This document shows positions 19,846 through 52,248 of a stretch of 64,000 bases of DNA, piece by piece (positions within the stretch are counted from its first letter, which is position 1; each line of letters begins with the position of its first letter). Source of the DNA: Hymenobacter puniceus. Its GTDB lineage: Bacteria > Bacteroidota > Bacteroidia > Cytophagales > Hymenobacteraceae. The position numbers and the translations under genes are program-made. The DNA is taken from positions 1 through 64,000 of the forward strand of contig NZ_JACSCX010000010.1 of NCBI RefSeq assembly GCF_014333525.1. Reading direction: 5' to 3'. Under the pieces are notes generated by a model. The model ran no database searches, was not told the origin of the DNA, and worked only from the letters and a program-made list of their open reading frames with translations.

Positions 19846-20014
19846 TTCCATACGAACGTCATGCCGAGGCGTAGCCGAAGCATCTCGCGTGCTGACGTTA
19901 CTTCACTAGCCCAGGGTTTAAACCTTAGGCCACGGAGCGGTTGTCATCTGACTATTTAACAACCTCAGCACGCGAGATACTTCGGCTACGCCTCGGCATG
20001 ACGTTCGTATGGAA
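19846..20014. repeat. Dispersed palindromic element with long core
   Basis: The arms start TTCCATACGAACGTCATGCC and end with its exact complement; about 50 bp pair with few mismatches. The loop contains TAGCCCAGGGTTTAAACC and CGGAGCGG, shared in reverse orientation with the copy at 35557-35706. Confidence 0.9.
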
Positions 20015-26650: not shown

Positions 26651-26759
26651 AACCGTCATGCTGAGCGCAGCCAGAGGTGCGGTCGAAGTATCTACTGCTT
26701 TGTTGCACTAGCGAAGACGAAGCAACAGAGATGCTCCGGCAAGCTCAGTAGGACGTTCT
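26651..26759. repeat. Dispersed palindromic element between the two Fe-S genes
   Basis: AACCGTCATGCTGAGCGCAG at the left and CAAGCTCAGTAGGACGTTCT at the right are arm ends. The arms are less well matched than in other copies. Confidence 0.75.
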
Positions 26760-29609: not shown

Positions 29610-29770
29610 AGAACGTCCTGCTGCAAATAGCCCGTCCTGCTGAGCTTGCCGAAGCATCTCTACCGCTTCGTTGCAGTAAGTGACCCAACGAAGCGGTAAA
29701 GATGCTTCGGCAAGCTCAGCAGGACGGTTAGCCTCTGGCGAGATGCTTCGCTCTACTCTGCATGACGTTT
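29610..29770. repeat. Dispersed palindromic element, nested copy
   Basis: The inner palindrome (29631-29727) has CGTCCTGCTGAGCTTGCC and its exact complement, with AGGAC replacing the usual ATGAC on both sides. Outer ends GAACGTCCTGC and GCATGACGTT suggest a second, older copy around it. Confidence 0.85.
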
Positions 29771-32206: not shown

Positions 32207-33412
32207 CTACGCCCGCTCCAGCACTACCGCGTAGCCCTGGCCTACGCCGATGCACATCGTCACGAGGGCGTAGCGCTTGTGCTGGCGGTGCAGCTCGCGG
32301 GCGGCGGCGTTGAGGATGCGGGCGCCGCTCATGCCCAGCGGGTGGCCCAGGGCAATGGCGCCGCCGTTGGGGTTCACGCGCGGGTCGTTGTCGGCGAGGT
32401 GTAGGGCGCGTAGGCAGGCCAGGCTTTGGGCGGCGAAGGCCTCGTTCAGCTCAATTACGTCGATGTCGTTGAGGGTGAGGCCGGCGCGTTGCAGGGCCTG
32501 CTGACTGGCCGGCACCGGCCCGATGCCCATGATGCGCGGCTCCACGCCGGCCACGCCCATGCTCACGATGCGGGCCAGCGGCGTGAGGTTGTGCTGCTTG
32601 ATGCCGTCTTCCGAAGCCAGCAACAGGGCTGCCGCGCCGTCGTTGAGGCCGGAGGCGTTGCCGGCCGTGACGGTGCCGGTTTTGCGGAACGCCGGGCGCA
32701 ACTTGCCGAGGCCTTCGAGGCTGGTGTCGGGCTTCAGGAACTCATCTGCGGCGAAAAGCAGCGGCTCGCCTTTGCGCTGCGGAATGGGCACCGGCGCAAT
32801 TTCCTCGGCCAGACGACCAGCCTGCTGAGCGGCGGCGGCTTTCTGCTGCGAGTGGAGCGCAAACTGGTCCTGGTCGTCGCGGCTGATGTGGTACTGGTCC
32901 ACCAGGTTTTCGGCGGTTTCGCCCATGGCGTCGGTGCCGTAGAGAGCCTGCATCTGGGGGTTGATGAAGCGCCAACCGAAGCTGGAGTCGTACATCTGCG
33001 AGTCGGTGCCGAAGCCTTTGCTGGGCTTGGATACCACCAGCGGGGCGCGCGTCATGTTCTCCACCCCGCCCGAAATAAACAGGTCACCGTCGCCGCTGCG
33101 GATGGCGCGGGCGGCGGCAATGCTGGCCGAGAGGCCGGAGGCACAGAGGCGGTTCACGGTTTCGCCGGGCACAGTGGTGGGCATACCGGCCAGCAGCAGG
33201 GCCATACGGGCCACGTTGCGGTTGTCTTCGCCGGCCTGGTTGGCGCAGCCCAGCAGCACATCGGCCACGGCGGCGGGGTCGAGGCTGGGGTGGCGGCGCA
33301 GCAGCTCCCGGATGGCGTGGGCCGCCAGGTCGTCGGGCCGAACGGCCGCGAGTGTGCCCCCAAAGTTGCCAATGGGCGTCCGGATTCCGTCGATGAGGTA
33401 GGCTTGGGTCAT
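32207..33412 (-). CDS. paaJ: 3-oxoadipyl-CoA/3-oxo-5,6-dehydrosuberyl-CoA thiolase PaaJ
   Basis: It performs the thiolytic steps of phenylacetate breakdown that release acetyl-CoA. The 401-aa protein has the acyl Cys90 (TVNRLCASG), [10 protein letters not shown] and CIGVGQG, so the active site is complete. The location in the paa cluster assigns it. It is a paralogue of the thiolase at 20035-21237. Confidence 0.92.
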
Positions 33413-33447
33413 GGGGTGGATGGTGATAGGGAAGGGAAAAGAGGGAA

Positions 33448-33506
33448 GAACGTCATGCTGAGCGAAGGCGCAGCCGCAGTCGAAGCATCTCTACCGCTTT
33501 GTTGAA
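33448..33506. repeat. Left arm of the GIY-YIG-carrying palindromic unit
   Basis: GAACGTCATGCTGAGCGAAG..TCGAAGCATCTCTACCGC is a complete arm with no partner beside it. Its best complement in the region is the right arm at 33871-33926, on the far side of the GIY-YIG gene; it ends 1 bp before the gene's stop codon. Confidence 0.85.
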
Positions 33507-33507
33507 C

Positions 33508-33798
33508 TTAGCCAGTCCAGGTTTCTAGGTCAATTGCCTCCCAAGTTGGGTTAAACGCGGTAATCAATGCGTCTTTCTTCCGGCGGGTCCAGCCTTTTAG
33601 TTGCTTTTCTCGCGCTATAGCTTGGGTTGCGTCAGGGCATATTTCAAAGTAAACCAGCAAATCTGCCTGATACCGTCCGGTAAATTTTCCGGCGTCGCCC
33701 CGCCCGTTGCTGTGCTCGTAGAGTCGGCGATTAAGGTCGTTAGTAACACCGATATACAGAACGGTTTGAGTTTGATTAGTCAGGATGTAGACATACAT
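33508..33798 (-). CDS. Small GIY-YIG nuclease family protein (URI type)
   Basis: The 96-aa single-domain protein has MYVYILTNQTQTVLYIGVTNDL, the GIY-YIG strand pair, with YIL for GIY and YIG intact. The conserved Arg (LNRRLYEH), KFTGRYQADLLVYFE, and the metal-binding Glu in AIAREKQLKGW follow. It is likely an active or recently active endonuclease. It has nothing to do with phenylacetate and interrupts the paaJ-paaI spacing. It is flanked by arms of the dispersed palindrome, the left arm touching its 3' end, and so looks like cargo of that element. The host function is unknown. Confidence 0.9.
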   Translation of the reverse strand: MYVYILTNQTQTVLYIGVTNDLNRRLYEHSNGRGDAGKFTGRYQADLLVYFEICPDATQAIAREKQLKGWTRRKKDALITAFNPTWEAIDLETWTG

Positions 33799-33810
33799 AT
33801 GGCTGTTGTT

Positions 33811-33926
33811 AGACCGTCATGCTGAGCTTGCCGAAGCATCTCTACCGCTGACTAACTCCTGACATGCGAACGAAGCGGTAGAGATGCTTCGACTTCGCCT
33901 CTGGTTTCGCTCAGCATGACGTTCTC
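33811..33926. repeat. Dispersed palindromic element / right arm of the GIY-YIG unit
   Basis: A left arm (ACCGTCATGCTGAGCTTGCC, from 33813) and right arm (GCGGTAGAGATGCTTCGACT..TCGCTCAGCATGACGTTCT) are present. The right arm matches the distant arm at 33448-33506 better than the near one, in the segment CTGAGCGAA..GTCGAAGC. Confidence 0.85.
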
Positions 33927-34362
33927 ACAGCACCTCCTTGCTCGTCCGGTAGGCGGTGCCTTTGAACAGGGCCAGTGGGGTGCCGTGCTGGTTGGTGAGG
34001 CGCAGCTGGTACACCCCGATTTTGTGCTTGAGGCTTTCCTCGCGGGCTTCCACGGTGATGAGGTCGTCGGGACGGCCGGGTTCGAGGAAGTCGATGGTGG
34101 CGCTGAGGGCCACGCTTTGGCGGCCGTGGCTGTTGCAGGCGAAAGCAAAGGCCGAGTCGGCAGCGGCGAAGGCTACGCCGCCGTGCAGGATGCCGAAGCC
34201 GTTGAGCATCTCGGGGCGCACCCGGAACTGCAGGCGGCAGTAGCCGGGGCCCATTTCCTGCACTTCCAGCCCCAGCCAGTGGCTGAAGGCATCGTGCTGC
34301 AGCATCTGGTCTTTCACGGCTTCGGCGCGCTGCACAGCGGCGCTAGCGGGCAGCTGGCTCAT
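33925..34362 (-). CDS. paaI: Hydroxyphenylacetyl-CoA thioesterase PaaI
   Basis: This hotdog-fold thioesterase releases CoA from dead-end ring-hydroxylated CoA esters during phenylacetate breakdown. The 145-aa length is usual, with HGGVAFAAADSAFAFACNSHG as the conserved helix (catalytic Asp included). It overlaps the 3' end of paaH by 20 bp, which implies translational coupling. Confidence 0.93.
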   Translation of the reverse strand: MSQLPASAAVQRAEAVKDQMLQHDAFSHWLGLEVQEMGPGYCRLQFRVRPEMLNGFGILHGGVAFAAADSAFAFACNSHGRQSVALSATIDFLEPGRPDDLITVEAREESLKHKIGVYQLRLTNQHGTPLALFKGTAYRTSKEVL

Positions 34363-35556: not shown

Positions 35557-35706
35557 GAACGTCATGCTGAGCTTGCCGAAGCATCTCGCGTGCTGACGTT
35601 GCTATAGTAATCAGATGGTACCCGCTCCGTAGCCCAGGGTTTAAACCCTGGGCTAGTGAAGCAACGTCAGCACGCGAGATGCTTCGACAAGCTCAGCATG
35701 ACGTTC
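35557..35706. repeat. Dispersed palindromic element with long core
   Basis: The arms GAACGTCATGCTGAGCTTGC and complement frame a core with CGCTCCGTAGCCCAGGGTTT and AAACCCTGGGCTAGTGAAGC. The core equals that of the copy at 19846-20014 in the opposite orientation. Confidence 0.92.
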
Positions 35707-36540: not shown

Positions 36541-36653
36541 GCCGTCATGCTGAGCGCAGCCGGAGGCGAAGTCGAAGCATCTCGCGTGCTGACGTTGAAT
36601 TACCGTTGCAACGTCAGCACGCGAGATGCTTCGGCAAGCTCAGCATGACGTTC
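36541..36653. repeat. Dispersed palindromic element between paaD and paaG
   Basis: GCCGTCATGCTGAG..GAAGCATCTCGCGTGCTGAC at the left and its complement at the right, with loop GTTGAATTACCGTTGCAAC. Confidence 0.92.
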
Positions 36654-38395: not shown

Positions 38396-38498
38396 AGCAC
38401 GTCATGCTGAGCTTGTCGAAGCATCTCGCGTGCTGACGTCGGATTACTATTGCAACGTCAGCACGCGAGATGCTTCGACAAGCTCAGCATGACGTGCT
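38396..38498. repeat. Dispersed palindromic element, perfect 43-bp arms
   Basis: The left arm 38396-38438 and the right arm 38456-38498 are exact reverse complements over all 43 bases, with a 17-nt loop containing GGATTACTATTGCA. The outer bases AGCACG/CGTGCT are unlike other copies yet match each other. Confidence 0.97.
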
Positions 38499-39554: not shown

Positions 39555-39673
39555 AGAACGTCATGCTGAGCGAAGCCGGAGGCGAAGTCGAAGCATCTCG
39601 CGTGCAGCAGTAATCAAATTAGTATTACAACGTCAGCACGCGAGATGCTTCGGCAAGCTCAGCATGACGTTCT
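39555..39673. repeat. Dispersed palindromic element between paaE and paaA
   Basis: AGAACGTCATGCTGAGCGAA at the left and CTCAGCATGACGTTCT at the right, with a loop of GCAGTAATCAAATTAGTATT. Confidence 0.9.
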
Positions 39674-48517: not shown

Positions 48518-48629
48518 AGAACGTCATGCTGAGCGAAGCCGGAGGCGAAGTCGAAGCATCTCTACCGCAGTAGTATTCAATACCGATTCAACGAAGCGGT
48601 AGAGATGCTTCGACAAGCTCAGCATGACA
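48518..48629. repeat. Dispersed palindromic element between kdpB and kdpC
   Basis: AGAACGTCATGCTGAGCGAA at the left, CTTCGACAAGCTCAGCATGA at the right, with GTAGAGATGC-type inner arms. It ends 18 bp before the kdpC start. Confidence 0.9.
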
Positions 48630-50707: not shown

Positions 50708-50923
50708 TAGAACGTCATTCCGAGCGAAGGCGGAGCCGCAGCCGAGGAATCTCGCGTGCTGACGTTGCCCAGCTACCTGTCATGCTGAGCTTGCCGAAGC
50801 ATCTCTACTGCTGCGTTGAAATACCGCCTCAAACGTCAGCACGCGAGATTCCTCGCACGCTACTCGGAATGACGTTCCACCAAAGCGGTAGAGATGCTTC
50901 GGCTGCGCTCAGCATGACGTTCT
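50708..50923. repeat. Two interlocked dispersed palindromes
   Basis: Element one has arms at about 50709-50767 (GAACGTCATTCCGAG) and 50831-50877. Element two has arms at about 50779-50818 (GTCATGCTGAGCTTGCC) and 50878-50918. The order is left1, left2, right1, right2. Confidence 0.85.
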
Positions 50924-52134: not shown

Positions 52135-52248
52135 AGAACGTCATGCTGAGCTTGTCGAAGTATCTCTACCTCTGGCTATATCATACTATTGCAACGAAGC
52201 GGTAGAGATGCTTCGACTGCGGCTACGCCTTCGCTCAGCATGACGTTC
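52135..52248. repeat. Dispersed palindromic element between kdpD and the histidine kinase
   Basis: AGAACGTCATGCTGAGCTTG at the left, CGCTCAGCATGACGTTC at the right; inner GTAGAGATGC/GTATCTCTAC pairing with one mismatch. Confidence 0.9.

Follow-up and report, generated by a model that had tools for sequence, protein, structure and literature searches.

The window, the 64,000-nucleotide stretch of Hymenobacter puniceus DNA analyzed here, contains a small GIY-YIG nuclease gene on the minus strand (33508 to 33798), recognized as an open reading frame whose 96-residue product matches profile PF01541. Its neighbors, both also on the minus strand, are a paaJ-type thiolase gene downstream (32207 to 33412) and a paaI-type thioesterase gene upstream (33925 to 34362); we take them to be paaJ and paaI. 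A single palindrome arm (GTCATGCTGAGC ... GAAGCATCTCTACCGC) lies past the stop of the nuclease gene (33447 to 33503, plus strand), and a dimer lies beyond its start, with one arm nearest the gene (33812 to 33850, plus strand) and a distal arm (33869 to 33925, minus strand). Read in gene orientation, the order is a full dimer (33920 to 33816), the gene and a single arm (33503 to 33452). A preliminary description of this DNA had placed the gene and the two outer arms at these positions, had paired the outer arms as best complements and had noted an extra arm in between; our data bear out all three points, as the outer arms are 88% complementary over 57 nt and the extra arm starts at 33816.

The same arm family recurs through the window. 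Seven other dimers of 93 to 142 bp, too short to hold a gene, were found. The one at 35561 to 35702 lacks an ORF and carries a second palindrome in its loop; the others are bare (36544 to 36649, 38401 to 38493, 39560 to 39668, 48523 to 48628, 50779 to 50918 and 52140 to 52244). A lone head of this family lies on the plus strand at 26655 to 26666 without an exact partner head nearby, and two dimers belong to a related family (GTCATGCCGAG; 19858 to 20002) and a variant family (GTCCTGCTGAG; 29634 to 29725). With at most one mismatch, GTCATGCTGAG occurs 25 times in the window, versus a mean of 1.10 and a maximum of 6 in shuffles, and in the 4.86-Mb genome the GTCATGCTGAGC head occurs 225 times (114+111), versus 3+0 for the reversed pattern. 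The window shuffles and the reversed-pattern genome control rule out a chance origin of the arms.

The same genome encodes a second small GIY-YIG protein, 55% identical to the first (C8:159309-159557), whose gene lies inside a different arm family, enclosed by TGTCATTGCGAG heads at 159162 to 159173 and 159657 to 159668. This head occurs 44 times genome-wide (21+23), with 0+0 occurrences of the reversed control. Among the 18 TGTCATTGCGAG pairs (L219-L236), one holds the gene, 16 span 161 to 212 bp and one spans 354 bp; by eye, the short units match the gene-bearing unit both in the arm and in the subterminal interior CAATCCTTCCTCT.... The second arm family is thus built like an autonomous element accompanied by non-autonomous relatives. 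The comparison with REP elements and RAYT transposases that the preliminary description had drawn fits this layout, since the short dimers match the GIY-YIG unit in terminal and subterminal sequence. Its statement that all other copies have adjoining arms and lack cargo is correct inside the window and fails genome-wide: in the carA-carB gap, window-family arms about 600 bp apart enclose a different ORF, without GIY-YIG (G000:C9:616537-617151). Two further GIY-YIG domains of this genome, in long ORFs, had no arm of the general form (GTCATN1-3GAG) within 1.5 kb of the domain. With regard to the GTCATGCCGAG dimer of the window, GIY-YIG genes of relatives have arms of this type, and the two small GIY-YIG genes of the genome itself have arms of other types.

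The 96-residue protein matched PF01541 with an E value of 6.2e-19 and a score of 68.5 bits (curated cut-off, 22.6). Across 32 sequences, Y4, Y15, G17, R25, H29, E64 and N83 are invariant, and these are presumably the catalytic tyrosines, glycine, arginine, histidine, glutamate and asparagine of GIY-YIG enzymes. By sequence, the protein belongs to the GIY-YIG nuclease superfamily and is predicted to be an active nuclease. The median dN/dS was 0.085 (41 intact copies, 435 pairs in range), revealing that the protein is maintained by purifying selection. The predicted structure is a single-domain GIY-YIG fold (pLDDT 90.9, pTM 0.83). UPF0213 (BH0048) was the top match in Foldseek and also by sequence, and VIA-align placed SLX1 first, with a Z of 7.8 over 90 residues, HIGLE (7.5) and UPF0213 (7.0) tied with it, I-TevI and UvrC in the next rows and the first unrelated row at 3.6; all Z values were under 8, and SLX1, HIGLE and UPF0213 are not separable. 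NCBIfam and PHROGs gave no informative family. SLX1, whose partner is SLX4, is a cutter of branched DNA; therefore, a hairpin or cruciform substrate would suit a protein of this predicted fold, although fold alone proves no function. We know of no link between SLX1 and repeats.

To place the locus in its genus, we searched 120 genomes, of which 99 had GIY-YIG relatives at an E value of 1e-6 or better. Seventy-one loci were analyzed for the general arm form in 400-bp flanks, and two were dropped for short flanks. An arm was present within 400 bp of the gene on at least one side in 67 of the remaining 69 loci and on both sides in 48; at most of the other loci the second arm lay further out, past a passenger ORF. 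By comparison, 10 of 219 distant control windows, taken at least 900 bp away, contained an arm, and among the matches listed for Y1/RAYT-type loci, 1 of 30 had an arm within 400 bp of the domain.

More distantly related GIY-YIG genes have other arms (GTCATGCAGAG, GTCATGTCGAG, GTCATGCCGAG, GTCATTCCGAG, GTCATCCTGAG and GTCATTGCGAG). Typing used flanks of 250 bp for the first 71 genes and of 450 bp for the others, which came from 40 fetched regions; 38 of these were used, L273 being excluded for its split gene and L274 because it is the L076 locus again. This yielded seven arm types for 103 of 109 genes, six genes having no recognized type. The GIY-YIG tree requires 12 changes of arm type, compared to a mean of 46.8 and a minimum of 41 in 200 shuffles, and the nearest relative under 98.5% identity had the same type for 93 of the 103 genes, compared to an expected fraction of 0.316; four of the ten misses paired TGCCGAG with TGTCGAG. 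Arm type thus follows nuclease clade. Of 24 genomes with at least two typed GIY-YIG genes (duplicate G079 removed), 22 have copies that span different arm families, and so the host genome does not account for the match between arm and enzyme. In the excluded L273 (G068:C1:1085355-1086461), the GIY-YIG gene is split by an insertion-sequence-like element of about 0.8 kb with inverted ends.

The survey by Di Nocera et al. (2013, PMC3733652) sorts REPs into GTAG and CGTC superfamilies, places CGTC REPs in five phyla, including dRS3 of Neisseria, and describes them as seemingly without a dedicated transposase, with none of the RAYT-type genes flanked by CGTC units. Our Y1 count in the genus (1 of 30 among the matches listed) agrees with the latter statement. 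When five arms were folded with RNA parameters, the head was unpaired in all five and the stem began at AT in four; the stem began at AT in one of the two window-family arms folded, and the short window arm folded otherwise. The window family follows the head rule of CGTC REPs, an unpaired CGTC, TGTC or CCTC and then a stem starting with AT. Its stem is interrupted after 5 bp and its tail is CTC, whereas the rule for CGTC REPs has an 8- to 9-bp stem, a 4- to 5-nt loop and a CCA tail. The window family and the CGTC superfamily therefore have in common the unpaired head, the AT stem start and a mostly dimeric arrangement, and differ in the interrupted stem, the CTC tail and the GIY-YIG gene that is coupled to the repeat here. 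The published form itself is found at many cross-phylum loci (among the best 80 of at least 577, see below), such as L131 and L142, with an 8-bp stem and a 4-nt loop, and many of the REPs in that set end in CCA. Like GTAG REPs and their RAYTs (REPtrons, REPINs), the arms are dispersed hairpins, mostly in inverted dimers, and the same repeat flanks a nuclease gene; unlike them, the enzyme is a GIY-YIG protein and not a Y1 HUH transposase, the head is CGTC and not GTAG, and the gene sits within the arm pair, in the place that passengers take in other strains. Of the two features of a REPtron, a gene flanked by the dispersed REP of its genome is present, and a Y1 HUH transposase (PF01797) is not. 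Among the matches listed in a literature search, whose scope excluded preprints and most of the subscription literature, no publication tied GIY-YIG proteins to REP or CGTC repeats.

We next looked beyond the genus. A tblastn search of a plasmid collection gave 34 records with a GIY-YIG relative, and 14 were fetched. Visual inspection placed CGTC-type hairpins on both sides of the gene at 11 of the 14 loci (L109-L117, L119 and L121; at L117 one hairpin overlaps the ORF end) and on one side at two (L118, and L120, whose only head is distant). Among these 14 loci, the UPF0213-type outlier L122 had no CGTC hairpin by eye. UPF0213 and SLX1 (the top matches in Foldseek and VIA-align, respectively) share the GIY-YIG fold with our protein, and the UPF0213-type L122 differs from it in this respect. 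Neisseria gonorrhoeae, Sinorhizobium meliloti and Azospirillum lipoferum are among the hosts; the survey (PMC3733652) lists Neisseriae, S. meliloti and A. lipoferum as carrying CGTC REPs. On a Planktothrix plasmid (L114), the neighbors of the GIY-YIG unit are an MmeI-type gene on one side and the DISARM gene drmA on the other.

For a broader sample, we took the best 80 of at least 577 confirmed loci, chosen on the protein alone and blind to the flanks, and applied a fixed hairpin rule within 250 bp; nine loci with short flanks were removed. In this best-80 set, 62 of the remaining 71 loci had a CGTC-type REP hairpin within 250 bp (upstream in 50, downstream in 49 and on both sides in 37), and nine had no REP by this rule. 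Among ORFs of at least 100 residues at the same loci, 12 of 105 had one (two on both sides), as did 48 of 1,177 far windows and 59 of 2,840 Markov shuffles. The reading of the arms as a general feature of intergenic regions was not adopted, given the 12 of 105 among control ORFs at the same loci of the best 80 of at least 577. The expectation that arms would be commoner beside GIY-YIG genes than elsewhere was thus borne out in the genus (67 of 69 versus 10 of 219 distant windows) and across phyla (62 of 71 versus 12 of 105 control ORFs, from the best 80 of at least 577), and the coupling of arm and gene is firm. By record title, the positive loci of the best-80 set come from alpha-, beta-, gamma- and 'delta'-proteobacteria, Planctomycetes (L135), Omnitrophus (L138), Parcubacteria and Moraniibacteriota (L145, L176 and L181), Nitrospinae (L162), Nitrospirae (L165), Calditrichaeota (L183), Bacteroidota (L184) and Bipolaricaulota (L194). 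Placement in this set is stereotyped: the nearest downstream REP lies 2 to 32 bp past the stop in 37 of 49 loci and is head-outward in 37 of 49, and the nearest upstream REP is head-outward in 36 of 50. At the 37 two-sided loci of the best 80, the 8-nt stems of the two sides had an identity of 0.946, compared to 0.773 for mismatched loci, and none of 10,000 permutations was as high. In 20 genomes of these best-80 loci, one stringent REP pattern was dispersed in 19, with only three to six copies in seven, and the reversed control gave 0 in all 20. PF01797 was found in 16 of the 20, so a Y1 enzyme has to be considered as a candidate there.

The preliminary description had also raised the question of whether the gene is a fixed resident between paaJ and paaI, and it is not. 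In the closest relative found (G012, PaaI 94%), a bare dimer occupies the site, its right junction being the same and its interior different, and in six relatives with the same gene pair the gap holds no palindrome, by eye. The bare palindrome of G012 is compatible with homing of the gene into a gene-less allele. At another site, near relatives lack the whole unit: in A. lipoferum 4B, a REP dimer, a GIY-YIG gene and a second REP dimer lie between sufB and sufC, and in three Azospirillum relatives (95 to 96% identity) this gap is 87 to 129 bp, with no CGTC head and no gene. A target-site duplication was not readable, as the carA-carB gaps and the sufB-sufC junctions are too diverged to place one. 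For a Rhizobium locus, no record was found that spans the flanks without the gene, and for a Shinella locus the Shinella records among the matches listed were at about 79%.

Of 72 places in the genus checked on the assumption that carB is 3,260 bp long, 40 are beside carB and on its strand, 23 within 0.6 kb upstream and 17 downstream (16 within 0.5 kb). Both sides of carB are thus a hotspot for GIY-YIG units, and the upstream side also holds passenger genes flanked by arms. It follows that not all copies are independent jumps and that the genus signal may in part reflect vertical inheritance at a single location. The contents of the carA-carB gap vary between strains, that is, one site has variable cargo: of 29 delimited gaps, five are 74 to 142 bp, 16 have a recognizable arm and five have a GIY-YIG gene. 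The ORFs between arm and GIY-YIG gene likewise vary from strain to strain. Profile matches to Imm50 (2 of 19), SMI1_KNR4 (1 of 19) and Barstar (1 of 19) were obtained among 19 hand-picked representative passengers, without assignment to individual members, and the rest gave none or weak ones; the arms thus also carry passenger genes, some of immunity type. Among the passengers that recur are a hydrophobic protein of 108 residues and several uncharacterized families.

Arm number was compared with nuclease carriage, treating genomes as independent irrespective of relatedness. Carriers of window-clade genes had a median GTCATGCTGAGC count of 145 (n = 48) versus 127 in noncarriers (n = 64; p = 0.147) in a first test and, with more genes typed, 158 (n = 52) versus 120 (n = 62; p = 0.023). 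Carriage of the window clade hence predicts the number of its CTGAG arms weakly at best, which counts against the nuclease as the engine of their spread. Carriers of CAGAG-type genes had a median of 98 CAGAG arms (n = 18) versus 7.5 (n = 96; p = 4e-5). Eight low-completeness genomes were left out of the first window-clade test, 28 genomes with untyped genes along with G090, G094-G097 and G108 were left out of the first CAGAG test, and the later tests omitted G090, G094-G097 and G108 and used the other 114 genomes. Many CAGAG arms without a typed carrier occur in G020, G039, G057, G061, G085 and G103. In G103, 629 CTGAG heads occur without any GIY-YIG relative at 1e-6, and G039 has 557 heads and one relative at 1e-7.

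Taken together, the gene and arms of the window probably make up a single copy of a mobile unit of REP type, with a free-standing GIY-YIG nuclease as its dedicated enzyme. By analogy, the best reading is that this nuclease would be to CGTC-type REPs what RAYT is to GTAG REPs. The protein likely acts on its own arms, by binding and cutting that we infer, and our best reading is that it drives their spread, by a transposition that we likewise infer. In this model, each arm would be a CGTC-headed hairpin with an unpaired CGTC or TGTC and a stem starting with AT, and the scattered short dimers would be non-autonomous members of the window arm family. The nuclease, with its predicted SLX1-like fold, may recognize its own family's arm hairpin, when extruded or single-stranded, and cut it at the base, and repair would be templated on another arm-flanked copy. 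Arm-enclosed content, either the nuclease gene or passengers such as immunity genes, would in this way be copied into existing palindromes, and more rarely a whole arm-gene-arm unit would enter a new intergenic site.

Three other explanations were weighed against this mobile-unit reading. A GIY-YIG homing endonuclease might invade palindromes that some other enzyme or process spreads, the arms being its target and not the product of its activity. The palindrome found bare, and with an interior of its own, at this site in the nearest relative found, the weak dependence of CTGAG arm number on clade carriage and the I-TevI domain among the structural matches all speak for such a parasite. Our protein shares its catalytic fold with I-TevI-type homing endonucleases, and a selfish cut-and-copy spread is plausible for both; however, it is free-standing, has 96 residues in a single modeled domain, is non-intronic and is flanked by palindromes. 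Moreover, the near relatives of the Azospirillum sufB-sufC locus have neither REPs nor the gene, CAGAG arm number goes with CAGAG-type genes, and the nuclease co-varies with seven arm types, a match that would have to be maintained continually if the enzyme were a parasite and its repeat evolved independently. We therefore consider homing unlikely. It is very unlikely, in our estimate, that the nuclease is a domesticated, immobile host factor that binds REPs in the course of a cellular task such as cruciform cutting. Such a role would fit the dN/dS of 0.085 and the frequent seat beside carB, always on its strand, and TnpA-REP is termed a domesticated transposase in PMC8266576; but presence is patchy, the sites vary across genomes and one genome may hold several copies with different arm families.

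Least credible to us is that a Y1 transposase of the RAYT/HUH type spreads the arms, with the GIY-YIG gene one passenger among several. Y1_Tnp genes are common, in 83 of 120 genus genomes and 16 of 20 cross-phylum genomes (from the best 80 of at least 577 loci), and other passenger genes do lie between arms. However, PF01797 is absent at E 0.001 from the H. puniceus genome and from G055, which has 706 heads, an arm lay within 400 bp in 1 of 30 Y1 loci among the matches listed, arm type tracks GIY-YIG clade and no RAYT gene is flanked by CGTC units according to Di Nocera et al. (PMC3733652). RAYT as the engine was rejected as the main reading on the PF01797 absence and the Y1 loci, common as Y1 genes are elsewhere.

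Returning to a mobile unit with its own nuclease, we lean toward a still unnamed class of mobile element, for which we suggest "GIY-YIG REP units". In it, a nuclease unrelated to transposases would propagate its own CGTC palindrome in many phyla and diversify into orthogonal pairs within a genus, and passengers, including immunity genes of polymorphic toxins, would be loaded and exchanged. A 96-residue candidate enzyme and natural arm-nuclease pairs that differ inside a single genome make the question of the missing CGTC transposase directly testable. If the enzyme cuts its arms, it would constitute a second, independent solution to REP mobility, with a GIY-YIG nuclease instead of an HUH transposase, and a route by which carAB and similar operons could acquire small immunity genes. 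Small genes whose sole annotation is "GIY-YIG nuclease family protein," "hypothetical protein" or "excinuclease ABC subunit C" could be accounted for in the same way. Integron cassettes, as generally known, are similar in that small co-oriented genes are each followed by a palindromic site and contents vary at a fixed site; here, the arms are also spread genome-wide as bare dimers.

Two details of the arms were also evident. The palindrome TAGCCCAGGGTTTAAACCCTGGGCTA lies inside the loop of two arm dimers (35626 to 35660 in the window, and locus L204). In arms of the GAGC...GCGAAG type, that is, the window family and its relatives, GA opposite GA breaks the stem in many cases, by eye, and this interruption is possibly a recognition feature.
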